Assembly (NCBI GenBank): GCA_025351005.1
Contig: JANXWS010000071.1
Location: 1 to 36,867 of the forward strand
DNA: 36,867 bases
Direction: 5' to 3'
Source of the DNA: Pseudomonadota bacterium
GTDB taxonomy: Bacteria > Pseudomonadota > Gammaproteobacteria > Steroidobacterales > Steroidobacteraceae
The notes beneath the pieces were generated by a model. It saw only the letters and a list, made by a program, of their open reading frames with translations, had not been told where the DNA came from and did not search any database. Made by a program: the position numbers and the translations under genes. The number at the start of each line of letters is the position of its first letter. Position 1 is the first letter of the stretch. Below, piece after piece: positions 13,875 through 34,812 of the stretch.

Positions 13875-15242
13875 TCAGTCGTCGCGGGACCCCTCGACGT
13901 CCGTGAGGCCGTGGCGCTGGATGACGCGCCGGTAGTAGTGCGCGCTGTCCTTCAGCGTGCGCTGCTGCGTCGCAAAGTCGACGTGCACTATCCCGAAACG
14001 CTGCGAGTAGCCCTGCGCCCACTCGAGATTGTCGAGCAGCGACCAGACGAAGTAGCCGCGGACGTCGACACCGGCGTCAATGGCGGCTTTCACCGCATCG
14101 AGGTGGCGGCGCAGATAGTCGATCCGCAGCGGGTCCGCGACCCGGCCCCCGCTCGCCACGGGTGGATCGTAGAAGGCCGAGCCGTTCTCGGTGATGAACA
14201 GCGGCGGGTTGCCGTAGTCGTCGGCCACGCGCCGCAGCAGTGACGTGAGTGCCGCCGGGAACACCTCCCAGCCCGTGGTCGTGTACGTCGAGTCCTGCTG
14301 CCGGACGCTCGAAGCTGCCAGCGGCCACTGGCCGGCGTCGTGTCGCGTCACGCCGCGCGTGTAGTAATTGACCCCGAGGAAGTCGATTGGTTGCGCGATG
14401 CTGCGGAGGTCCGCGGCGGGCCAATCGCGCCAGGCGTCGCCGAAGACCTCGCGCATCTCGGCCGGGTAGTGGCCGCGAAAGACCGGGTCGAGGTAGTGAC
14501 GATTCATGTAGGCATCGGCCCGCTTCGCCGCCAGCTGATCCTCGGCCGACTCCGAGGCGGGTACCTTGGGCTCGAGGTTCACCACGAGGCCGATCTCGTG
14601 GCGACCGACGGAGCGGTAGGCGGCGACCGCCGCGCCGTGTGCTCGCAGCAGGTTGTGCGACGCGATCGGCGCCTCGAAGGGGCTCTGGTGGCCTGGAGCG
14701 TGGACCCCGAACAGGTAGCCGGCGTCCGCGATTACCCATGGCTCGTTCAGCGTCACCCACCGGCGCACGCGTCCGTCGAGCAGCTTGTAGGTGAAGTGAG
14801 CGTAGTCCGCGAACCATCCGGCGATGTCCGGGTTGAGCCAGCCGCCCCGGTCATCGAGCGCCGCCGGAAGGTCCCAGTGGTACAGGGTCACCATCGGCTC
14901 GATGCCGCGCGCGAGCAGCCCGTCGACGAGCCGGTCGTAGAAGCCGGCGCCCGCCGGGTTGACGGCGCCCCGCCCCTCGGCGAACAGCCGGCTCCAGCTG
15001 ATGCTGAAGCGATAGGCCGTCAGGCCGAGCGCGGCCATCAGGTCGAGGTCCTCCTGCCAGCGCCGGTAATGGTCGCAGGCCAGATCTCCCGTATCGCCGT
15101 CGCGCATCCGGCCCGGCGTGTGCGCGAAGCGGTGCCAGATGCTCGGCCCGGCCCCGTCCGCGAGCGGCGAGCCCTCGATCTGGTAGGCCGCGGTGGCGGC
15201 ACCCCACAGGAAGCCCGGCGGAAACCGCCTGTCGTTCGTCAT
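13875..15242 (-). CDS. GH1 beta-glucosidase
   Basis: 455 residues from ATG 15242, full length for GH1. FPPGFLWGAATAAYQIEG at 7-24 is the family entry signature. The acid/base E167 lies in TLNEP and the nucleophile E352 in ITENG. FLGVNYYTRG and YFVWSLLDNLEWAQGYSQRF are also typical. There is no signal peptide, so it is cytoplasmic. It hydrolyses beta-linked glucose from short oligosaccharides; linkage preference cannot be read. The ATG overlaps the stop of the GH94 gene as ATGA, making it the last gene of the seven-gene operon. It would finish glucose disaccharides or trisaccharides left by the phosphorylase. The open frame upstream of ATG 15242 is only GC-rich read-through of the GH94 gene. 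Confidence 0.95.
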   Translation of the reverse strand: MTNDRRFPPGFLWGAATAAYQIEGSPLADGAGPSIWHRFAHTPGRMRDGDTGDLACDHYRRWQEDLDLMAALGLTAYRFSISWSRLFAEGRGAVNPAGAGFYDRLVDGLLARGIEPMVTLYHWDLPAALDDRGGWLNPDIAGWFADYAHFTYKLLDGRVRRWVTLNEPWVIADAGYLFGVHAPGHQSPFEAPIASHNLLRAHGAAVAAYRSVGRHEIGLVVNLEPKVPASESAEDQLAAKRADAYMNRHYLDPVFRGHYPAEMREVFGDAWRDWPAADLRSIAQPIDFLGVNYYTRGVTRHDAGQWPLAASSVRQQDSTYTTTGWEVFPAALTSLLRRVADDYGNPPLFITENGSAFYDPPVASGGRVADPLRIDYLRRHLDAVKAAIDAGVDVRGYFVWSLLDNLEWAQGYSQRFGIVHVDFATQQRTLKDSAHYYRRVIQRHGLTDVEGSRDD

Positions 15243-18200
15243 CCGCGGGTTCCGTCGGGCGTGCGCCGGGGTCCGAGCGTCACGGTCACGAGGTGCCTGC
15301 GGCCGTCGTTCGCCAGTGGGATCCTGAGACCGTCGCCGGTGATCGCGACCGGCTGTCCGTCGACGCTCGCCGCGACGACCCGCTCGGCGGACCGGGAAGG
15401 GTTGTCGACGTTGAGCGCGTATTGCGTGCCGTCCGGCCGGCGATGGCTGATCTGGAATCCCGGCCAGTCGTCCGGGATGCGCGGCGAGAGTGTCAGCCAT
15501 GCGCCATCCACGATGCCAAAGCCGAGCACCGACTCGAGTGCGACCCTGAGCATCCAGCCGGCCGACCCCGTATACCAGGTCCAGCCGCCACGGCCGACGT
15601 GCGGCGCGGTCCCGTAGACGTCGGCCGCGACCACGTACGGCTCGACCTTGTATCGATCGACGCCCGCCGCGTCGGCCGCGTGGCTCACCGGACTGAGCAT
15701 CGACAGCAGGCGCGCCGCGAGTTGCCGGCGCCCCGCCTCGGCGAGCGCGCGCACGACCCAGAGCGCGGCATGTGTGTACTGGCCGCCGTTCTCGCGGACG
15801 CCGGCGACGTATCCCTTGATGTAGCCAGGGTCCTCACGCGTGTGCTCGAACGGTGGCGCCAGCAACCGTATCAGGCGATCGTGCTCGCTGACGAGATGGC
15901 GCTCGAGCGAGTCGAGCGCGGTGGTGGCGCGCGCACCAGTGGCGACGCCCGAGATCACCGCCCACGCCTGCGCCAGCGCGTCGATCCGGCACTCGTCGCT
16001 GTGCCGCGACCCGAGCGGCTGGCCGTTGTCGTAGTAGCCGCGCCGGTACCACGCGCCGTCCCAGCCCGCGTCGTTGAGCGCGACCTCCAGGTCCTCGCGG
16101 AAGGCCCCGAAACGCGCCACGCTCTCTGCATCGTCGCGTCGACGGCTCAGCGGCAGGAAGTCCCCGAGTGCCGCGTACAGGAAGAAGCCCATCCAGACGC
16201 TTTCGCCGCGTCCCGCACGACCGACGCGGTTCATGCCATCGTTCCAGTCGCCGCAGCCGAACAGCGGTAGGCCGCGCTCACCCTTGGTCATGGCCCGGCG
16301 CAGGGCCCGGACGCAATGCTCGTAGAGCGTGACCTTGCCATCGCTGATGCCCGGCCGGATGAGGCGTTCATCCTCGTCCGTCGCGAGCGTCGGTCCCGTC
16401 ACGAACGGAACCGGCGCGTCGAGCACCGCAACGTCGCCGGTCACGCGGACGTAGTACGCGGTCAGGTACGGCAGCCACACCAGGTCATCGGCAAACTTGG
16501 TGCGGATGCCCTCGCTGCGGGGCGGGTGCCACCAGTGCAGCACGTCACCCTCGGCGAACTGGTGGGCCGCGCTACGCACGAGCTGCTCGCGAAGAAGCTG
16601 CGGCTCGGTCTGGACGAGCGCCGCCGCGTCCTGCAGCTGGTCCCTGAATCCATAGGCACCGCCCGACTGGTAGAAGGCGCTCCGCGCCCAGAGGCGGCAG
16701 GCGATCGTCTGGTAGCCGAGCCAGCCGTTGACCATGACGTCGACGTGCGGGGCCGGCGACCGGATCTGGGTCGCCGTAAGCGTCCTGCCCCAGTACTCGC
16801 GCACCTCCGAAAGCGCCGCATCGACCGCACCAGGCTGCCGGTAGGACGTCAGCAGCCGGTCGAGGTCGGCGACCGAGTCCGCTTCGCCGAGCAGCGCCGA
16901 GATCCGGATCTCGCCGCCGGCCGGCACGACGAGCAGGACCCGCAGCGCCGCGCACGGATCGTCGGCGTCGCCCCGGCCGAGCGGGCCGCCGGCGGCGACC
17001 GCGCGCGGCGCGTCGGCGAAGCCGGGCGTGCCGAGGAAGTGCCGCCGGTCAATGGTCGCATCGAACGGCGAACCGTTGGTGCCTGAAAACGCCGCGAACG
17101 CGATCGTGCCGACCAATGCGCCCGCAACCGAATGCTGCGCAAGGACCGCCTCGCGGTCCGCATCCGCGCGCGCCCGCAGCAGCTCCCGGCTCTCGGCGGC
17201 GCTCGCACCGAGCACCCAGCGCTGGTAGGCATAGAGCGACAGGGACCGTGGCGCGGCGCCGGGGTTCCGGATCCTGACGACGGCGATGCGGAGCGCATCC
17301 CGCCGCGGCACGAACACCGTTACTTCATGCGCGAGTCCATCGGAGCTGTGCTCCCACACCGAATACCCGAAGCCGTGCCGAACCTGGTAGCTCGCAGCGA
17401 GCGGCGCCGGGCCGGGCAGCGCCGACCAGAACGTGCCGCTCGCCTCGTCCCGGACGTAGAACGCCTCGTCGTGCGGGTCGACGATCGGATCGTTGCGCCA
17501 CGGAGTGATCCGGTGCAGGCGGCTGTTGCCGGCAAACGTGCAGAGGGATCCCTTCTCGCTCGCGATCAGCCCGAAGCGCTCGTTGGCGATCACGTTCGTC
17601 CATGGCATCGGCGGCAGGGCCAGCACGCCCCGGTCGTCGCGGCGGACTCGGATAAGGTACTCACGGCCCTCGTCGACGAACTCCCCGAAACCGTTGCCGT
17701 CTCGTGCCGGCACCGCGGCCGGGCCGGAAGGCGCGAGCGACGGAGCGGCGACGCGCCGGTGTGGTCGTCCTGAGCCCCGGCTGGCGGCCGTCCAGGCCGG
17801 GATCAGCGGGGCGATGGCGGCGTCGCTCGCCGCGGTCGCGGAGCCGGGCACTGCGGGACGCGCGATCGGGACCGGCACGACCGCGCCGCCGGTCGCATCG
17901 AGCAACGCCGCAAGGCCGCCTTCGTTTTCGGCAGCGATCAGCGAGAACAGGAGTTCCGCCGATTGACCGGCGTCGAGTCGCACGGTCGCCCGAAGCGCGA
18001 GCACCGGGTCGAGCACGTTGCCGAGTGTCCCGCTGAGCGCCGCCGTCAGCGCAGCCGGGTCGCGCACGCTCCGGCCGCGCCCCACGAACCGCGCCCGGTC
18101 GGTCTCCCAGCCATCGACCGGCGCGCCGGCGAGGGCAAGACCGACGGCGGGATGGCGTTCCGAATCCGCCCGCGGTCGCCGCGTCGCGACCAGGATGCCG

Positions 18201-18703
18201 CGGCCCGCGATCCGGGCGGTCTGAACGAAGAGCTTGCTGAACGCGGGATGGCCGTCGTGGGCCGCGGGCTCGTTCAGCACAATCTCGACGTAGGCCGTGA
18301 CCTCGAGCGTGCAGGCGGTCGCTGCCCGGTTGGTCAGGGAAAGCGTGCGCCGCTCGACCGCCGCGTCGCGCAGTACCTCGAGGCGGACGGTCGTCTCAAT
18401 GGCATTGCGCTGGCACGCGATCATCGCGCCGGTGGCGCCAGCCGTCACGACCCGGGCCGGCCCGTCCGCGAGCCCCGCACCGCACGCGGTCCATCGGGCG
18501 CCGGTCGCCCGATCGCGAACGTAGATCGTGAATCCGTATTCGTCCTCGCACGGATCGTCCTGCCAGCTCGAGAGCAGGTGGTTGCCGTACATCGAGAAGC
18601 CGGTTCCCGTCGGCGTCAGCACCGTGCTGTAGGTTCCGTTGCTGATGAGCAGCAGCGGCGCGTCCGGCAGCAGATCGGCGGCGTGTTGTTCGGGAGTGCG
18701 CAT
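15239..18703 (-). CDS. GH94 phosphorylase, cyclic-glucan-synthase-like; probable 1,2-beta-oligoglucan phosphorylase
   Basis: 1154 residues with no signal peptide, so cytoplasmic. Two related N-terminal modules are seen. The first (about 15-330) has NGTYSTVLTPTGTGFS, SSWQDDPCEDEYGFTIYVRD and ATGARWTACG. The second (about 355-650) has PWTNVIANERFGLIASEKG, TPWRNDPIVDPHDEAFYVRD and ASGTFWSALPG. The C-terminal (alpha/alpha)6 part carries QSGGAYGFRDQLQDAAAL, HWWHPP, and GCGDWNDGMNRVG with D819 and D822; the DWND motif includes the GH94 general acid. Then come ENGGQYTHAALWVVRALAEAG and GRGGWTWYTGSAGWM. This arrangement is that of the phosphorylase half of cyclic beta-1,2-glucan synthases and of stand-alone 1,2-beta-oligoglucan phosphorylases (EC 2.4.1.333, roughly 1100 residues), which release glucose 1-phosphate from sophoro-oligosaccharides. 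Another beta-linkage is possible. It starts 9 nt after the upstream stop. Confidence 0.88.
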   Translation of the reverse strand: MRTPEQHAADLLPDAPLLLISNGTYSTVLTPTGTGFSMYGNHLLSSWQDDPCEDEYGFTIYVRDRATGARWTACGAGLADGPARVVTAGATGAMIACQRNAIETTVRLEVLRDAAVERRTLSLTNRAATACTLEVTAYVEIVLNEPAAHDGHPAFSKLFVQTARIAGRGILVATRRPRADSERHPAVGLALAGAPVDGWETDRARFVGRGRSVRDPAALTAALSGTLGNVLDPVLALRATVRLDAGQSAELLFSLIAAENEGGLAALLDATGGAVVPVPIARPAVPGSATAASDAAIAPLIPAWTAASRGSGRPHRRVAAPSLAPSGPAAVPARDGNGFGEFVDEGREYLIRVRRDDRGVLALPPMPWTNVIANERFGLIASEKGSLCTFAGNSRLHRITPWRNDPIVDPHDEAFYVRDEASGTFWSALPGPAPLAASYQVRHGFGYSVWEHSSDGLAHEVTVFVPRRDALRIAVVRIRNPGAAPRSLSLYAYQRWVLGASAAESRELLRARADADREAVLAQHSVAGALVGTIAFAAFSGTNGSPFDATIDRRHFLGTPGFADAPRAVAAGGPLGRGDADDPCAALRVLLVVPAGGEIRISALLGEADSVADLDRLLTSYRQPGAVDAALSEVREYWGRTLTATQIRSPAPHVDVMVNGWLGYQTIACRLWARSAFYQSGGAYGFRDQLQDAAALVQTEPQLLREQLVRSAAHQFAEGDVLHWWHPPRSEGIRTKFADDLVWLPYLTAYYVRVTGDVAVLDAPVPFVTGPTLATDEDERLIRPGISDGKVTLYEHCVRALRRAMTKGERGLPLFGCGDWNDGMNRVGRAGRGESVWMGFFLYAALGDFLPLSRRRDDAESVARFGAFREDLEVALNDAGWDGAWYRRGYYDNGQPLGSRHSDECRIDALAQAWAVISGVATGARATTALDSLERHLVSEHDRLIRLLAPPFEHTREDPGYIKGYVAGVRENGGQYTHAALWVVRALAEAGRRQLAARLLSMLSPVSHAADAAGVDRYKVEPYVVAADVYGTAPHVGRGGWTWYTGSAGWMLRVALESVLGFGIVDGAWLTLSPRIPDDWPGFQISHRRPDGTQYALNVDNPSRSAERVVAASVDGQPVAITGDGLRIPLANDGRRHLVTVTLGPRRTPDGTRG

Positions 18704-18712
18704 CGGTGCCCG

Positions 18713-21700
18713 TCAGTAGCCGTCGACGTGGACGCGCGCGGGTGCCGAGCGGAGCCGAATCGCGCCGCCGTCGAAGCTCTCCGGCCGGCCGTTGACGAGC
18801 GCGGCCCCGTGCTGCGGCAGTCCCGGCAGGCGCAAGATGAAGCCGCCCGGCGGACTGCCCGCGCCCGCCTCGAGCTCGAGGTCGATCGCGCCGGCGGCAT
18901 GCTGCACGTGGTAGGCGACGGTGCCGTACCGGCTCCGGATTCCCCGGACCGCGACGCCGCGCCCGTCGAGCCAGCGGAGCGGCACACCGGCCGCGAGCAC
19001 GATGGTCCCGTCCGCCTCGCCGTCGTAGGCGAACAGGTCGAGCGCCGAGCGGATGAAGTCGGAAGCAACCCAGCCGTGCGGCAGGTCTCCGATGAAGCGT
19101 GCCACCCGCGGCTCGCGGCCGGTCACCTCCGGCCACTGGTTCCAGGCGGGCGGACGCCGGCCGGCCATCAGGTACTCGAGTGCCTCGAGTGCCCGCTCGC
19201 GCCAGCCCAGGCGCACGAAGGTGCCCACCGTGCGCCACTCGTACGGCGTGTAGGCGTCCCACTGGCGCGTGCCGTCGCGCCGCGCCACGAAATCACACCA
19301 GTAGCGCTCGAAGGTACTCTGGAGCAGCCCCGGCGGCAGGTCGATGGGGCCGGGGCCCGGCGCGACCGCGATGGTCGTTGCGGTGGCGTCGAAGTCGCCA
19401 AGGTCGGCAGCACCCGGGACGAAATCGAGGCTCCTCGTGCGCGTGACCTGCGCGATGGAGGCGGCGATGTCCCGGGCGAACTCGGCGCGCGCCCGCTCGT
19501 AGCGGGCGGCGTCCAGCGACTCGCCGAGCGCGCGCGCGAGGAAGACCGCGTCCGAGTAGCCACGCAATCCCCAGAAGTCGTCCCAGTACGAATGCATGGG
19601 CTTCGCGGAGTAGCCTTCGTGGCTGATCGACGGCGGCAGCAAGCCGAAGTACGGGCCCGCGACCGCGCCGTCGGCGGGCGACCCGCGGGTCGAGCGGCGC
19701 AGGCCGTCGAGGTACTCGGCGGCAAGCCGTATCCGCGGCCAGAGGGATGCCACCAGCTTGCGGTCGCCGCTCAGCCGGTAAACCTCGGCGGCGAGATAGA
19801 TGAACTCACCCGCGCTGTCGTTCTCCGGCACCGGATCGGCGCCGCGGTCGTCGACGCAGCACGGCACCTTGCCGTTGTCGAACAGGACGTTCGAATACCA
19901 GCGCAGGTAGTCCTTCGGGGCGCGCGTCTCGCCGAGGCGAAGGAGCGCCGCCGCGATCATCGCGCCGTCCCGGATCCATGAGCGCGCGTACGATCGCGTC
20001 CCGGGCCGCAGCACCGGGCCCTTGCGCGACACGAGCAGATGCGCCTCGGCGGTACGGACGGCGTTGGCGACCTCGGTTGCTTCGGCGGCATCCGGCGCCG
20101 AGATCCCGAAGTGATCGAGGCGCTCCCGCCATTCCCGGCGCACCGTGCCGAGGGCGACATCGAGCCGCTCCGGACCACGCTTCGTCGCGGCGCGGTCGGC
20201 GGCACTCCACGGCACCACGAGGCCGACCGTCGCAGCGGCTCCCGCCTGAAGGTCCAGATCAAACGCCATGACGCCGCTAGCGAGGCCGGAGTCGTCCCGT
20301 AGCTCGATCGGGCGTCCCGGTGCTGCGCCCCAGCCGCGGGCCGCGAGCTCCGCCGGCACCGCGCCGCTTTCGAAGGTGAATGCGCCGACGCGATCTGGCG
20401 CGAGCAGCGGCACGACCGCGGTGCCGCCGCCGGTGCGGAAGGACGCGCAATCCCATGCCAGACGAGCGATCGGCGACACGCCGCCGGGCGTGTTCAGGAA
20501 CTGCGCCGGCGGATTGACCTGGAAGGGACGCAGCGCGAGCAGCAGCGTCAGGTGCCTGCGCGCCGCGGCCAGGTTGCGAACAGTGTAGCGCCCGTACAGG
20601 CGGCCCTCCGGCACGCCCGCGGCGAACGCGGTGACGTCGAGCATCCAGGCGGCCGTCCGCCACCTGACCGACGGAATTGGAAGATAGCCGTCCGCGAGAC
20701 TCTGTTCCGCGGTCACGTCCGCCCAGCCGACGAGCCGGCCGTCCTCGACGATGAACGGCTCGACGCTCGGACCGCCCACGTCAGTCTCGAGCGCGCCGTC
20801 CTCAGACAGCAGCCCCGAGTGACTGCCGGCATCGGTACCGACGATCGTCCAGTAGGCCTGCTCGGTGAAGCCGCGCGGGTAGTGGCTGCGGGGATGCTCT
20901 CGGGCGATGGCCGTGACCAGACGGTTGCGGTCGGAACCGAACTCCGGATCCTCGAGGTCGATCCGGTGCAACGAGACCGCCGCCGGCAGCGCGTCGATGA
21001 CCGCCAGTCGCAGGTAGCGCGCCTCCGACTCCGGCAGCCAGAGCCAGTCGACCGCCGTGGCGCCGCCGGTCACGCGGCGCACGACGTGCCACGCGACGCC
21101 GTCGGTCGAGAGACTCAACTCGTAGCGGGATGGACGTCTATCCCTCCCCCACTCGACCCGGACTCCCCCGAATTCCCGCACCAGCTGCCAATCGACGACG
21201 AGCTCGCAAGCGGCCTGTGCGTCGGGCACGCAGCGCCAGTCGCTCATCGGGCTGCCGTCGGGAACGCGTACCAGCTGTCCGCCGGCCCGTCCGACCGGTC
21301 CTGGCCAGACCGGTGGCGGTGGCGGCAGCAGCACCAGCCGGATCGCGCCGATCTCTAGCGCGCCTGCGCCGCCTCGTTTGGCCGTAACCGCGAACTGCAG
21401 CCGTTCGACGTGCCGCAGTTCGTGATCCGCGGCAGGTCCCCAGGCGAACTCGATCTGGCGCCGCCGGATCCTGAGGACGCGGCCGGCGGCGGGGATTTCC
21501 AGCGCCGGCTGCCGGAACCACCAGACGTTCTCGCCGCTGGCGTCGAGCAGCTTGACCTCGAGGTCGTTGCCGGCGAGGTCGCCCTGCAGGACCATCTGGA
21601 GCTCGAAATTCTGCGGCAGATCGAGCGGCAGCACGCGCTCGGCCACCGCGAAGCCGGAGCGGTGATTGAAGTCGAAGCTGAGGCGCAGCGCGCCGCCGCG

Positions 21701-21859
21701 GGCGACGGATGCGACTTGCGCCGACACGTCGTCGGAGGCGACGGCATGCCAGGCGCTCGGCTCCGACATGTCGTCGAGCACGCGGGCCGGTTCGGCCGCG
21801 ACGACGAGCGGAGCGCCGGTGAGCAGCAACCAGGACACCAGTCGGCCGGGCTTGTGCAC
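18713..21859 (-). CDS. secreted discoidin plus six-hairpin (alpha/alpha) protein, unassigned glycosidase candidate
   Basis: 1048 residues from a GTG start, with a signal peptide (VSWLLLTGAPLVVAAEPA, likely cleavage near 22). Residues 25-175 look like a beta-sandwich binding module. Residues about 190-310 resemble a discoidin (F5/8 type C) domain, with VRVEWGRDRRPSRYELSLS, DGVAWHVVR and ARYLRLAV. Residues 330-590 form another beta-rich region. Residues 600-960 are an (alpha/alpha)6 barrel like six-hairpin glycosidases: R626-S-W-I-R-D-G-A633 recalls the WIRDA motif of GH15-type enzymes, PENDSAGEF with E679 and E685 follows, then HSYWDDFWGLRG at 756-767 and YTPYEWR. Carboxylates D631, E679, E685, D760 and D761 are catalytic candidates. 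I cannot place it in a numbered GH family. It sits 15 nt after the permease gene and 9 nt before the GH94 gene, so it belongs to the same operon and probably acts in the periplasm. Confidence 0.82.
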   Translation of the reverse strand: MHKPGRLVSWLLLTGAPLVVAAEPARVLDDMSEPSAWHAVASDDVSAQVASVARGGALRLSFDFNHRSGFAVAERVLPLDLPQNFELQMVLQGDLAGNDLEVKLLDASGENVWWFRQPALEIPAAGRVLRIRRRQIEFAWGPAADHELRHVERLQFAVTAKRGGAGALEIGAIRLVLLPPPPPVWPGPVGRAGGQLVRVPDGSPMSDWRCVPDAQAACELVVDWQLVREFGGVRVEWGRDRRPSRYELSLSTDGVAWHVVRRVTGGATAVDWLWLPESEARYLRLAVIDALPAAVSLHRIDLEDPEFGSDRNRLVTAIAREHPRSHYPRGFTEQAYWTIVGTDAGSHSGLLSEDGALETDVGGPSVEPFIVEDGRLVGWADVTAEQSLADGYLPIPSVRWRTAAWMLDVTAFAAGVPEGRLYGRYTVRNLAAARRHLTLLLALRPFQVNPPAQFLNTPGGVSPIARLAWDCASFRTGGGTAVVPLLAPDRVGAFTFESGAVPAELAARGWGAAPGRPIELRDDSGLASGVMAFDLDLQAGAAATVGLVVPWSAADRAATKRGPERLDVALGTVRREWRERLDHFGISAPDAAEATEVANAVRTAEAHLLVSRKGPVLRPGTRSYARSWIRDGAMIAAALLRLGETRAPKDYLRWYSNVLFDNGKVPCCVDDRGADPVPENDSAGEFIYLAAEVYRLSGDRKLVASLWPRIRLAAEYLDGLRRSTRGSPADGAVAGPYFGLLPPSISHEGYSAKPMHSYWDDFWGLRGYSDAVFLARALGESLDAARYERARAEFARDIAASIAQVTRTRSLDFVPGAADLGDFDATATTIAVAPGPGPIDLPPGLLQSTFERYWCDFVARRDGTRQWDAYTPYEWRTVGTFVRLGWRERALEALEYLMAGRRPPAWNQWPEVTGREPRVARFIGDLPHGWVASDFIRSALDLFAYDGEADGTIVLAAGVPLRWLDGRGVAVRGIRSRYGTVAYHVQHAAGAIDLELEAGAGSPPGGFILRLPGLPQHGAALVNGRPESFDGGAIRLRSAPARVHVDGY

Positions 21860-21874: not shown

Positions 21875-22696
21875 TCAGCCCTTGACGGCGCCGGCCATCA
21901 GGCCCTGCAGGTAGTAGCGCTGCAGCGCCAGGAACAGCACCAGCACCGGAATCACCGTCACCACCGACCCAGCCATCATCAGCTCGCTGTCCGGGACGTG
22001 CTCGCGCGACAGTGAAGCGAGCGCGACCGGCAGCGTGTAGCGGTCGCCGTCGTTGAGGATGACCAGCGGCCAGAGAAAGTCGTTCCAGGCGCCCAGAAAT
22101 GTGAATACCGCCAGCGTGACGAGTATCGGCGTCAGCAGCGGCAGCACGATCCGCCAGTAGATCGAGAACTCGCCGGCGCCGTCGATGCGGGCGGCATCGA
22201 GCAGCTCGTCCGGCAGCGCCAGCGCCGCCTGGCGGACGAGAAAAATGCTGAAGATTCCGGCGAGGTAGGGGACGAGCACGCCGCCCAGCGTGTTGACGAG
22301 CCCGATGGTCTTCAGCATCAGAAAGAGCGGCAGCATCGCCACCTGGGCCGGGATCACCAGCGCCGCCACCAGCACCTGGTGAATGCGCCGCCTGCCCGGA
22401 AATTCGAGCTTGGCGAACGCGTACCCGGCCGCGACGTTGAAGACGAGCGCAAGGCCGGTCGCGGCCACGGCGACTATCAGGCTGTTGAGGAAATGCAGGC
22501 CGACGCCCGCGCGTGCGAACAGGATGCGGTAGTTCTCGAGCGTCGGATGGTCGGGCCAGAGCGGTGGCGGATAGCTGCTGGACGTGCCGGCCGGCATCAG
22601 CGACGCCGACACCATCCAGAGCAGCGGCAACAGCGTCAGGCCGGCGGCGACGACGAGCGCGCCGTGGACGAGGACCGTGGCGCGGGTGAGCCTCAC
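21875..22696 (-). CDS. ABC sugar permease, MalG type
   Basis: 273 residues from GTG 22696, which overlaps the stop of the other permease gene as GTGA. Six hydrophobic segments are visible, beginning VLVHGALVVAAGLTLLPLLW. NYRILFARAGVGLHFLNSLI is typical of MalG-like proteins. The EAA loop is PDELLDAARIDGAGEFSIYW, followed by RIVLPLLTPILVTLAVFTF, which contacts the ATPase. GAWNDFLWPLVIL and the YYLQGLMAGAVKG end are standard for carbohydrate uptake class 1 (CUT1) importers. It lies in the inner membrane and forms the importer with the MalF-type subunit, the solute-binding lipoprotein and, presumably, the ATPase encoded at 32861. The longer upstream frame is rejected because it would run inside the preceding gene. 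Confidence 0.93.
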   Translation of the reverse strand: MRLTRATVLVHGALVVAAGLTLLPLLWMVSASLMPAGTSSSYPPPLWPDHPTLENYRILFARAGVGLHFLNSLIVAVAATGLALVFNVAAGYAFAKLEFPGRRRIHQVLVAALVIPAQVAMLPLFLMLKTIGLVNTLGGVLVPYLAGIFSIFLVRQAALALPDELLDAARIDGAGEFSIYWRIVLPLLTPILVTLAVFTFLGAWNDFLWPLVILNDGDRYTLPVALASLSREHVPDSELMMAGSVVTVIPVLVLFLALQRYYLQGLMAGAVKG

Positions 22697-23568
22697 GTCT
22701 CTGCACCGCGGCCGAAGCGAAGCTGCAGGGCGGTGACCGCGAACATCATCAGGAACAGGATGAAGGCAACGGCCGACGCCATGCCGAGGTTCCACCACCT
22801 GAAGCCTTCCTCGTAAAGCAGGTAAAGCACGCTCACCGTGCTCTGTGCCGGCCCTCCCTGGGTCATGACGTACGGTTCCGCGAACAGCTGGAAGTAGCCC
22901 GCGACGGTCAGGATGCTGACGAACAGGAGCGTCGGGCCCAGCATCGGCAGCGTGACGTGCCGGAACTGCTGCCAGGCGCTCGCGCCGTCGAGCCCGGCTG
23001 CCTCATAGAGGTCCTCCGGGATGTTCTGCAGCGCCGCCAGGACGATCACCATGTTGTAGCCGAAGTTCTTCCAGACCGAGAACAGGATGATCGACGGCAT
23101 CGCGAAGTGCGGATTGCCGAGCCAGTCGACCGGCCCGATCCCGAGCCTTCCGAGTCCGAAGTTGATGAGGCCGTAGCGGGTGTGCAGCAGGTAGCGCCAG
23201 ATGATCGCGACCGCGACGAGCGTGGTCACGACCGGCGCGAACAGCGCGGTCCGGAAGAAGCCGCGGAAGCGCACGAGGCGCGAGTTCACGAGCAGCGCGG
23301 CGCCGATCGACGCCGCAACCGAGAGCGGCACGCCGACCGCGGTGAAATAGAGCGTATTGCCGAGCGCCTTCCAGAACAGCGGCCTCGACAGCAGCTCGAC
23401 GTAGTTGCGCAGTCCCACGAAGCGCAGGTTGCGCAGGTCCGCGAGCGCGTAGATGTCGAAGTCGGTGACGCTGAGCGCGAGCGCGGCGCAGACCGGCAGC
23501 AGGAAGAAGACCGCGAGGATGCAGAGCGCGGGGGCGGCGAACAGGAGGCCGGCCTGACCGCGTGTCAC
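22693..23568 (-). CDS. ABC sugar permease, MalF type
   Basis: 291 residues from GTG 23568, overlapping the stop of the binding-protein gene as GTGA. The N terminus GQAGLLFAAPALCILAVFFL begins the first of six TM helices. The large periplasmic loop includes FVGLRNYVELLSRPLFWKAL. The EAA loop reads PEDLYEAAGLDGASAWQQFR then HVTLPMLGPTLLFVSILT. The end has YVMTQGGPAQSTVSVLYLLY, GFRWWNLGMASAVAFILFL and a short tail. These features define a CUT1 sugar importer subunit. The long frame upstream of GTG 23568 runs antiparallel to nothing useful and is just read-through of the binding-protein gene. It is probably part of a beta-glucan oligosaccharide importer, on the evidence of its neighbours. Confidence 0.93.
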   Translation of the reverse strand: MTRGQAGLLFAAPALCILAVFFLLPVCAALALSVTDFDIYALADLRNLRFVGLRNYVELLSRPLFWKALGNTLYFTAVGVPLSVAASIGAALLVNSRLVRFRGFFRTALFAPVVTTLVAVAIIWRYLLHTRYGLINFGLGRLGIGPVDWLGNPHFAMPSIILFSVWKNFGYNMVIVLAALQNIPEDLYEAAGLDGASAWQQFRHVTLPMLGPTLLFVSILTVAGYFQLFAEPYVMTQGGPAQSTVSVLYLLYEEGFRWWNLGMASAVAFILFLMMFAVTALQLRFGRGAET

Positions 23569-24836
23569 AGCGTCGCTCCTTCGGCGGTGAGCTGGCGGCG
23601 CTTGGCGAGCATCCGGTCCGCCGTCGCATTGAGCTCGCGCGCGCCGTCGTGGACCGACAGCTGGGCGCGGACGACGCGCTCGGCGACCAGGCGCATTTCC
23701 TGGACGATCCGCTCCCATTCGGGGACCTGCGGCACCGGTCGTGCGCGTTCGAGCTGGTCCCGGAAGGCGCGCGCATAGGGGTCGCCGGCGATCGCGGCGG
23801 ATTCCCAGGCGGACCGCCGCGGCGGCAGGTCGCCGGTCAGCGCATGGAAACGCTCCTGCACCGACGGCCGCGAAAGGTACTCGACCAGCTGCCAGGCCGC
23901 GTCCTGGTGGCGGGAATGACCGAACACGGCGAGGCTCGCGCCGCCGGCGATCGAGGCGCCCGGGCCATCGGGCCCGGGGAGCGGCGCGGTCATCCAGCGG
24001 CCAGCCAGTTCCGGCGGCAGCCGCCGCTGGAACTCGCCGATATTCCACGGCCCGCTGATGTAGAAGGCAAAGTAGCCCCGGCCGAACTCCGTCCAGACGT
24101 TTGAGATCTGCGAGCTGCTGACCCCGGGCGCATACCCCTTGCGGAACATCCCGACGTAGAAGTCGAGCGTTCGCTCGAAAGCCGCGCTGGCGAAGTTGGC
24201 CCGCACGCCGCCGTCGACGAGCAGCGGCTCCGGTTGCTGCAGGGCAAGCGCCAGCAACGGCTCGAACTCGTCGAGTGGCAGCAGGATCGCGTAATGCTCG
24301 CCGCTGCCATGCGCGACGACCGCCGCGAGCACCCGCTGCCACTCGGACCACGACCGCGGCGGGTCCGGGAAGCCGGCGTCACGGACGAGGTCCGTGCGAT
24401 AGAACAGCAGCCGTGTATCGACGTACCACGGAACGCCGAAGGTGGAGCCGCCGATGACGTTGGTCGCCCAGATGCCAGGGAAGTAGTCGGCGCTCGCGAT
24501 GCCCGTCGAGGCGGCGATCCGTGCATCCAGCGGTGCGAGCGCCTTGAGCGCGACCAGCTCCGGAATCCACGTGTTACCGAGCTCGCACACGTCCGGCGTC
24601 GAGTCCCCCGCCACCGCCGTCAGGAGCTTCTCGTGCGCCGCGGTCCACGGCAGCTGCTCGACTTTGACCTTGATGCCCGGATGGGTGCGCTCGAACTCGG
24701 GCAGGAGCTCGGTCACGACCTCGCTCTCGCGGCCCATCGCCCAGAAGCGGAGCACGGTCTGCGTCTCGCCGCGGGCACAGGCGGCGATTGCGACCGGCAG
24801 CGCACAGAGGAGCAGGACCAGGGCCGGGCGCCGCAT
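23565..24836 (-). CDS. ABC solute-binding lipoprotein for oligosaccharides
   Basis: 423 residues. Lipobox AIAAC with C20 as the lipidated cysteine. The family-1 extracellular solute-binding signature follows: VLRFWAMGRESEVVTELLPE, FERTHPGIKVKVEQLPW, AAHEKLLTAVAGDSTPDVCE and LGNTWIPELVAL. Then come FGVPWYVDTRLLFYRTDLVR, NIGEF and a GGASLAVFGHSRHQDAAWQL segment near the C-terminal hinge. It sits on the periplasmic face and delivers sugar to the two permeases. The start ATG overlaps the upstream GH144 stop as TGATG. Ligand is not readable, but a homologous gene order (binding protein, permeases, synthase-like GH94) is known for sophoro-oligosaccharide uptake in Listeria. That comparison is from memory. 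Confidence 0.93.
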   Translation of the reverse strand: MRRPALVLLLCALPVAIAACARGETQTVLRFWAMGRESEVVTELLPEFERTHPGIKVKVEQLPWTAAHEKLLTAVAGDSTPDVCELGNTWIPELVALKALAPLDARIAASTGIASADYFPGIWATNVIGGSTFGVPWYVDTRLLFYRTDLVRDAGFPDPPRSWSEWQRVLAAVVAHGSGEHYAILLPLDEFEPLLALALQQPEPLLVDGGVRANFASAAFERTLDFYVGMFRKGYAPGVSSSQISNVWTEFGRGYFAFYISGPWNIGEFQRRLPPELAGRWMTAPLPGPDGPGASIAGGASLAVFGHSRHQDAAWQLVEYLSRPSVQERFHALTGDLPPRRSAWESAAIAGDPYARAFRDQLERARPVPQVPEWERIVQEMRLVAERVVRAQLSVHDGARELNATADRMLAKRRQLTAEGATL

Positions 24837-26356
24837 CAGGGTGTGGTTCCCAGCCAGCCGCCGGTAAAGCCCGCCCGCAGCAGGCCGCTTCGAACGTACG
24901 CATTGCCGCGCATCAGGCGCCAGATGAGATCAGTGCGGTAGTTCTCGACCATCGCGAGGATCGGGCCCTGGTCGATCCCGAGGTAGTCGGTATCGAACCA
25001 GCCCATGCCTGGCACGACGTAGCCGGCGGCGACCGGCAGGCTGAACGTGAAGCTCGGGTTGAACGCGTCGATGAAGCCGTATGTCGAATACAGGTAGTTG
25101 CCGTAGCGGGTCGTCATGTCCGAAAGCGCCGGCAGCACGATCTCGGGTGCGAAGGCAATCGACGAGATCGCGCCGGTCGGGGCGATCGTACCGTCGTCAT
25201 AGGTCGCGAGGCCGCCCATCCCGCGGCCAGCGTAGCCGTAGAACGTCCGCGTCTGGCCGTTGTAGGTCGCGGTCCACGCGCCAGGCCCGTCGGACGCGGT
25301 CACACCGAACGTCAGCAGGCCATAGTCCCGCCAGCCGAGCGGGTTGGCGACCGCGTAGGACTGCTGCGCATAGGTGGCGCTGCGGCTGTTCTGGAAGTAG
25401 TCGCTCCCCTTCGCGCGCATGTACGGGTCCTGGATGCCGCGGAAATCGACCCAGACGTGCGAGTACTGGTGTCCGAACAGCGGCGGGAACGTGAGGTACG
25501 TCTGGCCGAATTGCGTCCGCCATTGCGCGTCGTAGCTGGCGCTCCAGTTCTGCCATGCACCGCTCGGCAACGGCGAGGACGGCGACCCGAGGCCGAGCAC
25601 ATAGACGATCATCGCCTCGTTGTAGCCGCGCCAGCGCAGCGGGTGGAAGCCGCTCTCCGGCGTCCAGGCGAGCGACACGAGGCCGGTCGCGTCCGCCGCC
25701 CACGCCCAGTCGACCCGCCGGTACAGGTCGTCGGCGAGACTGCGAATCTCGGCCTCCGCCGGGTCGGTGCCGGTGAAGTAGCTGCCGGCCAGCAGCACGC
25801 CCGCCATCAGCAGGGCCGTGTCGATGGTCGACAGTTCGGTAGTCTGGTAGCGCGTGCCGCTCACCATGTCGAGGAAGTGGTAGAAAAAACCGTGATAGCC
25901 GCTCATGCCGCTCGCGGCCGGGCCCTGCGGCGCATCGTGCAGGAACCGGAGCGTCGTCAGCGCCCGCGCGGCCGCGTCCTGGCGGGTGACGTAGCCGCGC
26001 TCCACGCCGACCGGATACGCGGTCAGCGCGAAGCCGATCGCGGCGATGCTCGAGAACGACGGCGTCGGGTACCGGTCGGGAACGAGTCCGTTGACCGGAT
26101 TCGCCGTCATCCAGAAGTACCTGAAGGTTCGCCGCTCGACGTCATCGAAGAGTGCCGCCGCCTGGCTCGGCGAAATCGGCGCGGAGGCCGGATTGGACGG
26201 CGGCGAAACAGTCGTACCGCCGGCGCAGCCGCTGATCAGGGTCGCAAGCAGCGCGAGCGCGATCGGCGCCCGGCGCGACGATTGCCCTGAGGCGAAAACG
26301 CGTCGCGGCCCGCGGCCAGCCCGGAACGGCGGCCAGGGCGCGATGCTAGGCCGCAC
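24836..26356 (-). CDS. GH144-type lipoprotein, probable endo-beta-1,2-glucanase
   Basis: 506 residues from a GTG start, with a lipobox LISGC (C44) after a long basic N terminus. The (alpha/alpha)6 glycoamylase-like domain fills 65-495: VERRTFRYFWMTANPVNGLV then PDRYP, SSIAAIGFALTAYPVGVERG, DAAARALTTLRFL, GMSGYHGFFYHFLDMVSG, ELSTIDTALLMAGVL, HPLRWRGYNEAMIVYVLGLG, FGHQYSHVWVDFRGIQD, and GWFDTDYLGIDQGPILAMVE. This is the pattern of the family that contains GH144 endo-beta-1,2-glucanases. As a lipoprotein it would act in the periplasm or at the outer membrane, releasing sophoro-oligosaccharides for the receptor and importer. Other members of the wider domain family have unknown substrates, so the reaction is inferred. 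It is the first gene of the tightly packed operon. Confidence 0.85.
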   Translation of the reverse strand: MRPSIAPWPPFRAGRGPRRVFASGQSSRRAPIALALLATLISGCAGGTTVSPPSNPASAPISPSQAAALFDDVERRTFRYFWMTANPVNGLVPDRYPTPSFSSIAAIGFALTAYPVGVERGYVTRQDAAARALTTLRFLHDAPQGPAASGMSGYHGFFYHFLDMVSGTRYQTTELSTIDTALLMAGVLLAGSYFTGTDPAEAEIRSLADDLYRRVDWAWAADATGLVSLAWTPESGFHPLRWRGYNEAMIVYVLGLGSPSSPLPSGAWQNWSASYDAQWRTQFGQTYLTFPPLFGHQYSHVWVDFRGIQDPYMRAKGSDYFQNSRSATYAQQSYAVANPLGWRDYGLLTFGVTASDGPGAWTATYNGQTRTFYGYAGRGMGGLATYDDGTIAPTGAISSIAFAPEIVLPALSDMTTRYGNYLYSTYGFIDAFNPSFTFSLPVAAGYVVPGMGWFDTDYLGIDQGPILAMVENYRTDLIWRLMRGNAYVRSGLLRAGFTGGWLGTTP

Positions 26357-28123: not shown

Positions 28124-31100
28124 TCAGAACTTCGCCCCGATCGTCACGCGCAGCTCGCGCGGCGTTCCATTGATGTTGCCGTTGGGATTGTAGGTGCCAC
28201 TGTTGGCGATTCCGTTCGCGGCGTTGGTGTTCATGTAGTCGACGAGACTTGGTCGGTTGAAGACATTCAGCACGTCGAATCGGACGTAGACCTTGGAAAA
28301 GTCCTGGATCGCGAAGTTCTTTGTGACCTCCAGGTCCAGCGTCTTGATTCCGAGCCCGGACGCCGTGAATGCTTCCGCCGTGCATTGGCCCCCGGTCGGG
28401 AACGCAGGGCCTGCGCTATTGAAGCAGGTGATGGTGTTTTGGGGTATCGGGCTGGCAATCGTCACCTTGCCGGCCAGCATGATGCCCCACGGTGCCGAGA
28501 AGGTCCCCGTGGCGACGAAGCGGTGCTTCGCCGCGGCATTTGACGTGACGTAAGGGTATTGCGAGACCGCGACCTCGTCGAACGAGTAATGCTCGTTGAT
28601 GTCCCGGTTCTGTGTCGCACTCGTATACGTATAGGCAAAGGTCGCGCCCCAGCGGGACTCCTGCGTGAACGGCTTGTCGGCCGACAGCAGCAGCTGAGTG
28701 CTCTTCGTCTCGATGTCGTTGTGGCCGATGATCAGGTTGCCGGCAAGGCCCGGCGGCGGGTAGAGCCACGGCTGTGCGGGGCCGCCCCAGGGCACCGATC
28801 CCCAGAACGAGCCGTCCGGGCGTCGATTGCCGAGCGTAAACGCGAAACCGTCCTTGCTCACGATCCGGGACACAGCGGCGCTCGTATTCCAGTCGGCGAT
28901 GCGATTGCGAATGCCGACACTGAACTGGTCCGAGTACGGAACCTTCAGATTGTTGTTCAGCAGGTCCACCTCGCCCGCCGCGCCGTTCAGCAGCGCCTGC
29001 AGACCGCCTACACCGTTCAGGTACGCCGGGTTCCACGCGACGCAGGACGGCGGGTTCGGATTGCAGGCATGCCCCGGGATGTTGAAGGAGACCCTGGGCT
29101 CGGACAGCGCTATCTTCGTCTGCTCGAGCTGCAGGTAATCGTAGAGGTCGCGGTCGTAGGAGCGGCCGACGCCGCCGAATACGACGTGCCGCTGGTCGGC
29201 CGCGAGGTCGTACGAGAACCCGAGGCGAGGCTGGAACTCGCCCTTGTAGGCGGAGCGGTTGTGGCCGTTGCTTATGTAGTCGTTGATGTTGAGCTTCGTC
29301 GCCGGGTCGGTGCTCAAGCCGAGGCTCTGCCCATAGGTCAGCCCGGGGGGGACGTTCGGGTAGGCTGCGCTCGGCGTGATGACGGTATTGAGCTCATTGA
29401 GGACGAACTGCGGCGTGACGAAATTCAGGTAGCCCGGGTTCCACTCGATGTCATAGCGGGCACCGAGATTGAGCGTCAGCTTGTCGTTCGTCGCCCAGTC
29501 ATCCTGAAAGTAGACACCAAACTGGCGGTCGCTCGACCGGGCAATCGGATTGGTCCCGGCCGTTACCGCTGCGAACACCGCCTGGTAAGGCAGCACGGAA
29601 GTACCAGTCGCCGTAACGTCGTAGAAAAAGATCGGGTTGTAATTCGGCGCAGCGTCCGCCGCCTCGAGCTTGACCCACTTCATCTTGACGCCGGTCTTGA
29701 TCGTGTGGTCCCCCATTCCCCACTGCACGTGCGCGAACGTCAGGTCATCGGCAATGGCGTAGCCCTTCTGCCCCTTGTTCTGGGTGGCGCGCGGGTCGAC
29801 GCCGTTGGTCACGAGGATCGTCGCGTTGCCCTGCGTCTGATTGGTGTAGGTCGCACCGTTTATCGAGCCGTTCTTGCCGGCGGGGGTGAAGTAGGCGTCC
29901 TCGTACGTCAGCAGCACTTCGTTGAAGTAGGCCCTCCCGTCGTGCTGCCAGCGAAGTCCCACGCGGTTGTCGGTATTGGTGGTTTCGATCGCAGCCGACG
30001 CAGCCGTTCCGGGGCCGGCCTGGTCGCCTAGTCCCGTCTCGTGGCGAATCTTCGCGTCGAGCACGAACTTGTCGACGTCGTTCGGCTCCCAGTCGAGCTT
30101 TCCGAAGTAGAGATTCTCCGTGAACGGCAGCGTCGCCGGGCCGAGTTGCGCCAGCGCGGCGGGCGGCAGCTGCGCGATGATGGCGGGAGTCGCGTTGGTC
30201 GCGGTGACCGTGACGGGTGTCGTGTATTTCTTGCCTTCGTAGGTCACGAAGAAGTGCATGACGTCCGGGATGATCGGACCGCCGAACGCGATTCCGTACT
30301 CCTTGTCTTTCGACGGCGTCTTCATGTTCGCGGCGAGCTCGCCGGGCGTCTCGGCCCGCCAGCTGTCGTGCGTGTAGGTGCCGAACACCTCGCCATCGAA
30401 CTTGTTCGTGCCGGAGCGGGTCTCGGCCGTGACCGCGGCGCTCGAGATCTGGTCGTACTCGGCCTTGTAGTTCGACGTGATGACCTTGTACTCGCCGATC
30501 GCGAGCTGCGGGAAGGGATTGCCCGGGGTATTGTCCGTCTGGCCGCTCAGGCCGCTGCGGACGTAGCCTTTCTGGCCGACGCCGTCAATGTACACGTTGA
30601 CCGAGTTGTTATTCTGCGCACCGCCCCGGATCGACGTCTTGCCTTTCTGGTCGACGTTGAATACGACGCCTGGCACGGTGTCGGCGAATTCGAGGAAGTT
30701 GCGCGTGAGCTGAGGCACCGTCTGTATCTGGTCGAGGGAAACAGTTGTACCGACCTCCGAGGTCTTGACCTCGGTCAGCTTCGTCGAACGAACCGTGATG
30801 TCGGCAAGCGTCGTCTCCGGCGCAACCGGCGGCGCGCCGCCGACGAGGTCGAGGGTCGCGGTCGAAGCGACGCTCAGCGTGACGATTCGCTCGTTGCCCG
30901 CACCGTTCGCCACCCGGTAGGTTCCGGGCGTCAGTCCGACGAGGACGTACGTGCCGTCGGAACCGGCAGTCGTGCGACGAACCGCACCGTTCTCGACGTT
31001 CTTCGCGGTGACTTCGCTGTTCGCGCCCGCCTTGCCGCGCAGGGTCGCGTCGGCCGACTGCGCCCACGCGGACGTCGGCAGTCCCACGGACGACGCGAGC

Positions 31101-31156
31101 GTCGTCGCGATTACCGAAGCGAGGATATTGCTGCCGCGATACAGTCTCTTCGTCAT
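28124..31156 (-). CDS. TonB-dependent receptor with carboxypeptidase-regulatory-like N-terminal domain
   Basis: 1010 residues. Signal peptide with likely cleavage after SAWA at about 32. Residues 36-110 form a transthyretin-like regulatory domain (ADATLRGKAG, then GSDGTYVLVGLTPGTYRV). An AP-E/TTLADITVRST stretch near 115-128 may hold the TonB box. The plug follows, with IRGGAQNNNSVNVYIDGVGQ and GEYKVITSNYKAEY. The rest is a 22-strand-type outer-membrane barrel rich in aromatic and Asn/Gly residues, ending VTIGAKF with the terminal Phe typical of outer-membrane proteins. It takes up large ligands with energy from TonB-ExbBD, which are not in this window. By context the ligand is a glucan or oligosaccharide. 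It precedes the halogenase-like gene by 100 nt. Confidence 0.93.
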   Translation of the reverse strand: MTKRLYRGSNILASVIATTLASSVGLPTSAWAQSADATLRGKAGANSEVTAKNVENGAVRRTTAGSDGTYVLVGLTPGTYRVANGAGNERIVTLSVASTATLDLVGGAPPVAPETTLADITVRSTKLTEVKTSEVGTTVSLDQIQTVPQLTRNFLEFADTVPGVVFNVDQKGKTSIRGGAQNNNSVNVYIDGVGQKGYVRSGLSGQTDNTPGNPFPQLAIGEYKVITSNYKAEYDQISSAAVTAETRSGTNKFDGEVFGTYTHDSWRAETPGELAANMKTPSKDKEYGIAFGGPIIPDVMHFFVTYEGKKYTTPVTVTATNATPAIIAQLPPAALAQLGPATLPFTENLYFGKLDWEPNDVDKFVLDAKIRHETGLGDQAGPGTAASAAIETTNTDNRVGLRWQHDGRAYFNEVLLTYEDAYFTPAGKNGSINGATYTNQTQGNATILVTNGVDPRATQNKGQKGYAIADDLTFAHVQWGMGDHTIKTGVKMKWVKLEAADAAPNYNPIFFYDVTATGTSVLPYQAVFAAVTAGTNPIARSSDRQFGVYFQDDWATNDKLTLNLGARYDIEWNPGYLNFVTPQFVLNELNTVITPSAAYPNVPPGLTYGQSLGLSTDPATKLNINDYISNGHNRSAYKGEFQPRLGFSYDLAADQRHVVFGGVGRSYDRDLYDYLQLEQTKIALSEPRVSFNIPGHACNPNPPSCVAWNPAYLNGVGGLQALLNGAAGEVDLLNNNLKVPYSDQFSVGIRNRIADWNTSAAVSRIVSKDGFAFTLGNRRPDGSFWGSVPWGGPAQPWLYPPPGLAGNLIIGHNDIETKSTQLLLSADKPFTQESRWGATFAYTYTSATQNRDINEHYSFDEVAVSQYPYVTSNAAAKHRFVATGTFSAPWGIMLAGKVTIASPIPQNTITCFNSAGPAFPTGGQCTAEAFTASGLGIKTLDLEVTKNFAIQDFSKVYVRFDVLNVFNRPSLVDYMNTNAANGIANSGTYNPNGNINGTPRELRVTIGAKF

Positions 31157-32860: not shown

Positions 32861-33975
<1,115 letters not shown>

Positions 33976-33976
<1 letters not shown>

Positions 33977-34806: not shown

Positions 34807-34812
34807 CCGCAT

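Follow-up and report, generated by a model that had tools for sequence, protein, structure and literature searches.

What does a 1048-amino-acid protein that stays below the cut-off of every catalytic Pfam and NCBIfam family contribute to a beta-1,2-glucan operon? The question is raised by a locus in the window, by which we mean the whole analysed stretch of 36,867 nucleotides.

Gene and genomic context

The gene occupies positions 18713–21859 of the window on the minus strand (21859..18713) and has a GTG start. Its open frame is supported by a family alignment of 81 rows, and the plus strand of the same interval is interrupted by stops. The gene is present in a single copy in its genome. A sequence-only reading had claimed a frame of this length between permeases and a phosphorylase, with the motifs RSWIRDGA at residues 626–633, PENDSAGEF from residue 678 and HSYWDDFW at 756–763. 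All of these were located as claimed; a permease gene lies 15 nt before its start and a GH94 gene 9 nt beyond its end.

The family sample comprises the best 80 of 525 stretches encoding relatives in one scan, and the 80 studied relatives are 44–61% identical to the 1048-aa protein. Pfam scans covered 47 members, and scans of the barrel alone covered 38.

Upstream on the same strand lie genes for a LacI-type regulator (31278..32333; PF00356, PF13377), a TonB-dependent receptor (28124..31156; PF25183, PF00593), a GH144 beta-1,2-glucanase homologue (24836..26356; PF10091), an ABC sugar-binding protein (23565..24836) and two ABC permeases with NCBIfam matches, one of UgpA type (22693..23565, start approximate) and one of UgpE type (21875..22798). 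Downstream are the GH94 protein (15239..18703; PF06165, PF17167) and a GH1 beta-glucosidase (13875..15248, start approximate; PF00232, with TIGR03356 above cut-off), both on the minus strand. A UgpC/MalK-type ABC ATPase is encoded on the plus strand (32861..33976; NF008653 above cut-off). The closest solved chain to the GH144 homologue is XCC2207 (8xul, E 4e-177); for the sugar-binding protein it is 3uor (E 2.3e-152), followed by Lin1841 (5ysb, E 1e-68).

The proposed link to beta-1,2-glucan is borne out by these characterized neighbours (XcSGL, Lin1841-like) and by conservation of the context. Homologues of the window GH144 and of the window sugar-binding protein were found in 76 and 77, respectively, of the 80 relative loci (the best 80 of 525). 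In Xanthomonas hortorum the GH144 of the locus is a near-identical orthologue of the characterized XcSGL (XCC2207). An SOGP-type GH94 gene directly follows the gene in one relative (L094), and GH186 adjoins it in two others (L090 and L091).

Domain organization

The 1048-aa protein consists of a signal peptide, a beta-sandwich, a discoidin module, a supersandwich, an (alpha/alpha)6 barrel and a beta cap. The AlphaFold2 model (mean pLDDT 88.2, pTM 0.89) contains the barrel that the sequence-only reading had described. The signal peptide it had named (residues ~1–23, 21791..21859, minus strand as for all segments below) was assigned by hydropathy with a cleavage site read by eye, and agrees with the family, where 76 of 79 members start with a hydrophobic 12-mer; among internal control windows, 16 of 243 are as hydrophobic (hydropathy only; L005 and L055 dropped). 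The N-terminal binding module claimed by the same reading is supported in part: residues 26–177 (21329..21784) form a beta-sandwich in the model, and carbohydrate-binding models match only some of the 47 members (CBM_AftD in 16, CBM_11 in 8 and CBM_4_9 in 5).

The discoidin (F5/8 type C) module, also predicted earlier, spans residues ~185–303 (20951..21307). PF00754 is above its cut-off (30 vs 28.2 bits), a discoidin module is present in 47 of 47 aligned members, and the module is visible in the model. It resembles the CBM32/discoidin module of a glucanase/chitosanase (4zz5, which we take to be of Paenibacillus type; profile E 1.7e-14). The supersandwich (residues 337–550, 20210..20851) was delimited from models and fold matches, the linker helix with the barrel (residues 564–943, 19031..20170) from models and a profile match to GH15, and the C-terminal beta domain (residues 944–1046, 18722..19030) from the model.

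Relationship to known glycoside hydrolase families

An earlier suggestion that the protein may found a new glycoside hydrolase family agrees with the lack of any catalytic family at the Pfam or NCBIfam cut-off. It needs qualification at the profile level, where the barrel is distantly GH15-like. A family alignment compared with 30 GH15 proteins gave 97.1% in hhalign (E 7.6e-11, 334 columns) and 95.4% with 7 GH15 proteins; controls reached 0.1% (reversed), at most 0.8% (40 column shuffles) and at most 1.2% (20 local shuffles). Other families gave 1.3% (GH94, 6 proteins), 0.2% (GH65), 1.7% (GH133) and 1.0% (GH144), and a second GH15 subgroup of 3 proteins gave just 7.3%. Since the barrel is distantly GH15-like, a new family would stand beside GH15 and would not be a new kind of enzyme.

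The GH15-like TIGR01577 matches 44 of 47 members; its cut-off is 820.7 bits, and the 1048-aa protein scores 24. PF00723 has no match in the full protein at E <=1, and with the barrel alone it is matched by 15 of the 38 members, the lowest E-value being 3.7e-4. Among solved structures, the barrel profile weakly matched isomaltose glucohydrolase (E 0.016) and amylo-alpha-1,6-glucosidase (E 0.11) best, both alpha-1,6-acting. A single-sequence search of solved structures with the 1048-aa protein gave no match, and a search of a viral fold library gave nothing informative. The whole-length profile had 75 matches up to E 1, discoidin modules best. Alignment A2, with full-length and trimmed rows, found chiefly discoidin modules. 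A3 and A4 were used in its place, and A4 matched only one chain (E 0.43).

The supersandwich and (alpha/alpha)6 barrel are shared with GH15 enzymes such as isomaltose glucohydrolase (5z3a), glucodextranase (1ug9), dextran dextrinase (9ju0) and bacterial glucoamylase (1lf6). Unlike these, the 1048-aa protein has extra N-terminal modules and is encoded in a beta-1,2-glucan operon. The overall fold is also that of GH94, a family of cellobiose and chitobiose phosphorylases and of the C-terminal part of cyclic glucan synthase that shares the operon in some relatives. Of the families proposed earlier for comparison, hhalign selects GH15 over GH65, GH94 and GH144, whereas a fold search with the trimmed model is led by GH94 phosphorylases by E-value. 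Fold searching by itself did not tell GH94 and GH15 apart and was set aside as a discriminator.

Weak barrel matches (E <=0.1) were obtained for GDE_C (GH133, glycogen debranching) in 17 and for Bac_rhamnosid6H (PF17389, GH78) in 35 of the 47 members; a GH95 model was also weakly matched in the member scans. The window protein misses these cut-offs, with no GDE_C match at E <=1 and 11.1 vs 24.5 bits for PF17389. One relative passes PF17389, an alpha-L-rhamnosidase model.

Conserved carboxylates and putative active site

Three positions (coordinates on the minus strand) stand out in the family alignment. R630-D631 (19967..19972; 81/81 rows) aligns with the Arg-Asp of GH15, D631 pairing with the Asp of the W-L-R-D motif in isomaltose glucohydrolase and GH15. 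E748 (19616..19618; 80/80) lies in the alpha5-alpha6 loop and E911 (19127..19129; 80/80) in the alpha11-alpha12 loop, helices being numbered from the AlphaFold2 model; E911 aligns with a GH15 Glu. The E748 column is the sole acidic one at least 90% conserved in its loop, as judged from the family alignment and the model. The loop aligns with GH15 with gaps, hhalign paired a different residue with the GH15 acid, and the neighbouring residues 749–751 have pLDDT <50. Carboxylates at the GH15 positions are also kept in 7 more distant members.

The GH15 Asp contacts the glucose at subsite -1 through the O4 and O6 atoms of the sugar. According to an excerpt of PMC12446779, GH15 enzymes carry a Glu in each of the alpha5-alpha6 and alpha11-alpha12 loops and an Asp at subsite -1; E911 and D631 stand at these places, as E748 probably does. 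E748 (probable general acid) and E911 (probable general base) are the likelier catalytic pair, and D631 is more likely a sugar-binding residue of subsite -1 than a catalytic one. The residues first put forward for mutation were D631, E679 and D761. The first two are invariant (81/81 rows), but position 761 is not conserved: of 80 relatives, 33 carry Asp there and 47 carry Asn. Its neighbour D760 is invariant (80/80); it was dropped as general acid because the model places it inside helix 758–777. Loss of all conserved carboxylates in relatives, which would have spoken against the sequence-only reading, was not observed for E748, E911, D631 or E679.

Co-occurrence with ring-closing GH186 enzymes

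Among 369 genomes the gene was found at full length in 12, and GH186 was present in 11 of the 12 vs 47 of 357 genomes. The ring-closing GH186 signature, with columns placed by eye, occurs in 7 of these 11 vs 1 of 46 genomes that have GH186 but lack the gene (Fisher p 9e-6, uncorrected for kinship). The signature count excludes one copy from the weak-hit genome G199 (C17) and three small pieces, two of them from G068 (C71) and the third from G260 (C64). The association with ring makers does not hold for all carriers, because in a second set, where a commoner presence had been expected, GH186 occurs in just 5 of 20 and the ring signature in 2. No GH186 was found in the window's own genome (86% complete).

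Proposed function and alternatives

The 1048-aa protein probably acts like a GH15 alpha-glucosidase. It would be a secreted glycoside hydrolase, periplasmic or on the surface, with its (alpha/alpha)6 barrel behind the supersandwich. E748 would serve as general acid and E911 as general base, while R630 and D631 would grip the glucose at subsite -1; given these residues and the GH15-like barrel, an alpha-glucosidic bond would most likely be cleaved with inversion. The known alpha bond of these glucans is the single alpha-1,6 link by which the beta-1,2-glucan rings of Xanthomonas, Ralstonia and Cereibacter are closed. Like the sequence-only reading, we favour a site of action at a cyclised end or other unusual linkage of beta-1,2-glucan. 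That the target is the alpha-1,6 link of the cyclised glucans is the most speculative part of our explanation, and we rate it just short of an even chance.

The glucan would enter through the TonB-dependent receptor and GH144 would cleave its beta-1,2 bonds. The 1048-aa protein would sever the alpha-1,6 link, whether in the intact ring, which would thereby open, or in GH144 fragments that still contain the alpha-1,6 joint, while its N-terminal modules bind the glucan. The ABC importer may then take in beta-1,2-glucooligosaccharides, with GH94 and GH1 completing their breakdown inside the cell.

Known GH15 enzymes attack their substrates from the non-reducing end (PMC12446779, in the excerpt available), and a ring has none, which counts against ring opening. 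This and the GH15-like active site favour instead an exo alpha-glucosidase for other alpha-linked glucose, which might cap or branch from beta-1,2-glucan or belong to an ordinary alpha-glucoside consumed alongside it. We consider this unlikely; the alpha bond named for beta-1,2-glucans in the available part of PMC11842490 is the alpha-1,6 closure, and that part describes no alpha-glucosyl cap.

It is also quite unlikely that the protein is a hydrolase or phosphorylase of beta-1,2 bonds, or a transglucosylase, whose GH15 likeness is mere ancestry. The operon is centred on beta-1,2 bonds, GH94 structures lead the fold search, and a GH15 homologue can be a retaining transglucosylase. Against this, an invariant Glu occupies the GH15 base position, the Pfam scans of 47 members gave no match to a GH94 model, and hhalign values for GH94 and GH144 are low. 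A non-catalytic protein that uses its two N-terminal binding-type modules to hand glucan to GH144 or the importer is highly improbable, given the invariance of the GH15-place carboxylates across the 80 relatives and the 7 more distant members.

Implications

We tentatively suggest, with more doubt than confidence, that the protein founds a new glycoside hydrolase family beside GH15 and is the first known enzyme to cut the alpha-1,6 bond that closes cyclised beta-1,2-glucans. In degradation it would then be the counterpart of the GH186 synthase that closes the ring. In the open-access literature we found no paper on removal of this bond. If the proposal is wrong, there is still an uncharacterized GH15-like family missed by Pfam and NCBIfam, including the relative that passes the alpha-L-rhamnosidase model. 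The family is linked to a characterized beta-1,2-glucanase through its locus, and the analysis supplies a candidate enzyme with named residues. If the proposal is true, a gap in the pathway would be filled and a tool for analysing cyclised beta-1,2-glucans gained. In the accessible part of PMC11228985, cyclised beta-1,2-glucan is a factor of immune avoidance and infection in Xanthomonas campestris; bacteria could then consume the ring-shaped glucan by which a plant pathogen avoids immunity.

Gene and family

The 1048-residue protein is encoded on the minus strand by an open reading frame with a GTG start (21859..18713); a permease gene lies 15 nt upstream and a GH94 gene 9 nt downstream. The motifs RSWIRDGA, PENDSAGEF and HSYWDDFW are found in the frame at the positions that the sequence-only reading gave. 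The window's genome, 86% complete at 2.7 Mb in 90 contigs, has a single copy of the gene. A separate protein of that genome (1091-aa frame; G000:C83:164943-165476, L126 and L146) weakly matches the six-hairpin models PF17389 and PF22422.

A single scan of genome contigs yielded 525 stretches encoding relatives, of which the best 80 were retained; these are 44-61% identical to the window protein and come from Xanthomonas, Lysobacter, Luteimonas, Pseudoxanthomonas, Duganella, Pseudoduganella, Brevundimonas, Hyalangium and metagenome-assembled genomes (MAGs), among others. In the resulting 81-row alignment, R630, D631, D670, D675, E679 and D681 are unchanged in all rows. One row (L055) is truncated, and later columns were counted over 80 rows: E748, W759, D760, D822, D824, E874, R876, E911, D925, H928 and D934 are unchanged in all of these. 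Of the catalytic candidates proposed earlier, D631 and E679 are thus invariant, whereas the D761 column varies, with Asp in 33 of the 80 rows and Asn in 47. The truncated copy, from a Phenylobacterium MAG (L055:9926-12082), is cut short (718 aa) while similarity continues past that point, through a frameshift, a stop or an assembly error.

Relation to known families

The earlier impression that the protein fits no readily recognised numbered family agrees with the Pfam search, where PF00754 (discoidin) alone reaches its cut-off. In NCBIfam, TIGR01577 (GH15-like amylase) scores 24 bits against a cut-off of 820.7. Among 47 members the matched models include TIGR01577 (44 members), Bac_rhamnosid6H (35), GDE_C (17), GH95 (8) and GH15 (1), and the Pfam scan of these members gave zero matches to GH94 models. 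Since curated cut-offs are not reached, the family is not filed in GH15. One relative (L124, G012:C3:56925-57395) scores above the cut-off of Pfam's alpha-L-rhamnosidase barrel model (28 vs 24.5 bits), and family members may therefore be mislabelled.

Profile-profile alignments, built at depths that differed between families (1 to 30 sequences), favoured GH15: 97.1% (E 7.6e-11) with 30 sequences and 95.4% with seven, and 7.3% for a second GH15 subgroup of three. The GH15 alignment pairs SWIRDGA with CWLRDAS, and WNQWPEV...FIGDLPHGWVASDFIRSALDLF with LLAEE...LGNFPQALSHLALINSAANL. MGH1-like sequences gave 58.8% (6 sequences) or 0.2% (3), and the remaining families GH133 1.7% (1 sequence), GH94 1.3% (6), GH144 1.0% (9) and GH65 0.2% (5); controls reached 0.1% (reversed), at most 0.8% (40 column shuffles) and at most 1.2% (20 local shuffles). 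Against solved structures, the barrel profile ranked isomaltose glucohydrolase chains (E 0.016) and amylo-alpha-1,6-glucosidase (E 0.11) at the top, neither significant alone. The fold search was divided: the whole model had dextran dextrinase (GH15) as its top match, the trimmed one a GH94 cellobiose phosphorylase; glucodextranase, GH116, GH78 and others were also listed. The predicted fold alone does not decide between GH15 and GH94. The suggestion of a possible new family is supported in that the window protein reaches no catalytic cut-off in Pfam or NCBIfam; with a barrel distantly GH15-like by profile, such a family would lie beside GH15.

Predicted architecture and catalytic residues

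The AlphaFold2 model, computed from 47 sequences (mean pLDDT 88.2, pTM 0.89), contains a beta-sandwich (26-177), discoidin (~185-303), supersandwich (337-550), helices (564-943) and a C-terminal beta domain. Modelling residues 312-1048 on their own gave an agreeing result (pLDDT 88.8, pTM 0.92). We read helix 564-581 as a linker outside the barrel numbering, and the twelve predicted barrel helices as 592-610, 629-641, 646-656, 682-697, 700-724, 758-777, 781-808, 825-832, 843-861, 874-884, 887-899 and 929-943. With this numbering, E748 is the sole acidic column conserved in at least 90% of the 81-row alignment within loop 5-6 (725-757), and loop 11-12 (900-928) holds both E911 and D925.

In GH15 enzymes, the alpha5-alpha6 loop is described as carrying the acid and the alpha11-alpha12 loop the base, while an Asp at subsite -1, Asp56 in KfIG, contacts O4 and O6; a GH15 homologue may also be a retaining transglucosylase (PMC12446779). 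The candidates E748 (acid), E911 (base) and D631 (subsite -1 Asp) fit these places, E748 being the least certain. We take the Asp at position 76 of the 5z3a chain, aligned with D631, to be KfIG Asp56, assuming a 20-residue tag. All three residues are retained in seven more distant members from the class survey (barrel identity 41-48%). The window protein probably works like a GH15 enzyme, judging from alignments and models.

Gene context

Homologues of the window's proteins were counted by tblastn (E 1e-8) in the best 80 of 525 loci, excluding the window's own; several contigs end early, making all counts lower bounds. GH144 occurs in 76 loci, the TonB-dependent receptor in 66, GH94 in 14 and the tryptophan halogenase in 9; for permease B (79), permease A (78), the binding protein (77), UgpC (41) and LacI (64) homologues need not be orthologues. 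The tryptophan-halogenase-like gene (PF04820; 26512-28023, minus strand) is flanked by the genes for GH144 and the TonB-dependent receptor. Divergent from the operon (32861-36465, plus strand) are genes for a UgpC/MalK-type ATPase, an esterase-like protein and GH39, the last with a homologue in one of the 80 loci.

Among solved chains the window GH144 is nearest to 8xul (XCC2207; E 4e-177), which is called XcSGL and acts on beta-1,2-glucan (PMC12102758). In X. hortorum (L021) a GH144 near-identical to XCC2207 is encoded upstream of the gene, and the binding protein and two permeases stand in between; tblastn found no GH94 match in the 10 kb downstream. The next gene there, overlapping, is of the endonuclease/exonuclease/phosphatase family (L021:13090-14073, plus strand). 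The window binding protein is nearest to 3uor, followed by Lin1841, which binds beta-1,2-glucooligosaccharides according to PMC12369401; that paper also describes a GH1 enzyme that takes part in metabolising beta-1,2-glucan. At L094 a GH94 with SOGP domains immediately follows the gene; L095 and L096 have a neighbour resembling it, judged by size and weak GH94 likeness. Two GH186 (MdoG-type) genes, neither bearing the ring-closing signature, stand directly upstream on the same strand at L090:6965-13995, and one cluster (L091:3488-17352) combines GH94, the gene, permease, binding protein, ATPase and a divergent GH186 gene. The link to beta-1,2-glucan proposed earlier is thus supported at the level of the locus.

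The tags XCC2207, XCC2208, XCC2211 and XccSGL occur in PMC12102758 and PMC1790865, XCC2208 being named in the excerpted text of the latter only as a TBDR without canonical plug. The open-access full texts searched mention none of XCC2203, XCC2204, XCC2206, XAC2307 and XAC2310, and yielded neither a description of the window protein's family nor an enzyme for the alpha-1,6 bond of cyclised beta-1,2-glucan. We regard the family as a real, widespread family of predicted GH15-like enzymes, uncharacterised in that literature and bound to beta-1,2-glucan loci.

Co-occurrence with ring-closing GH186

A single alpha-1,6 bond is reported to close the beta-1,2-glucans of Ralstonia, Xanthomonas and Cereibacter, with DP 13, 16 and 18 (PMC11842490), and the ring-closing GH186 is marked by W or Y at 76, D343 and R477 (PMC11228985). 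Among 369 genomes of the window's class, 12 carry the gene at full length and two more have weak partial matches. GH186 is present in 58 genomes and PF10091 in 43, each in 11 of the 12 carriers, PF10091 several times as long cyclic-glucan-synthase-like frames. The ring mark was found in 7 of 11 GH186 genomes with the gene versus 1 of 46 without it (Fisher p 9e-6, kinship ignored; of the seven, three carry the same family label and a further two share a second one), and also in the single weak-match genome that has GH186. Of 20 other carriers, chosen as a second set, only five have GH186, two with the mark; the tie between the gene and ring makers is therefore not general.

Cutting of the alpha-1,6 closure is our best single guess for the predicted activity, a tentative one that we hold slightly more apt to fail than to succeed. 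The distribution of the gene is in keeping with scavengers, a subset of them ring makers as well.
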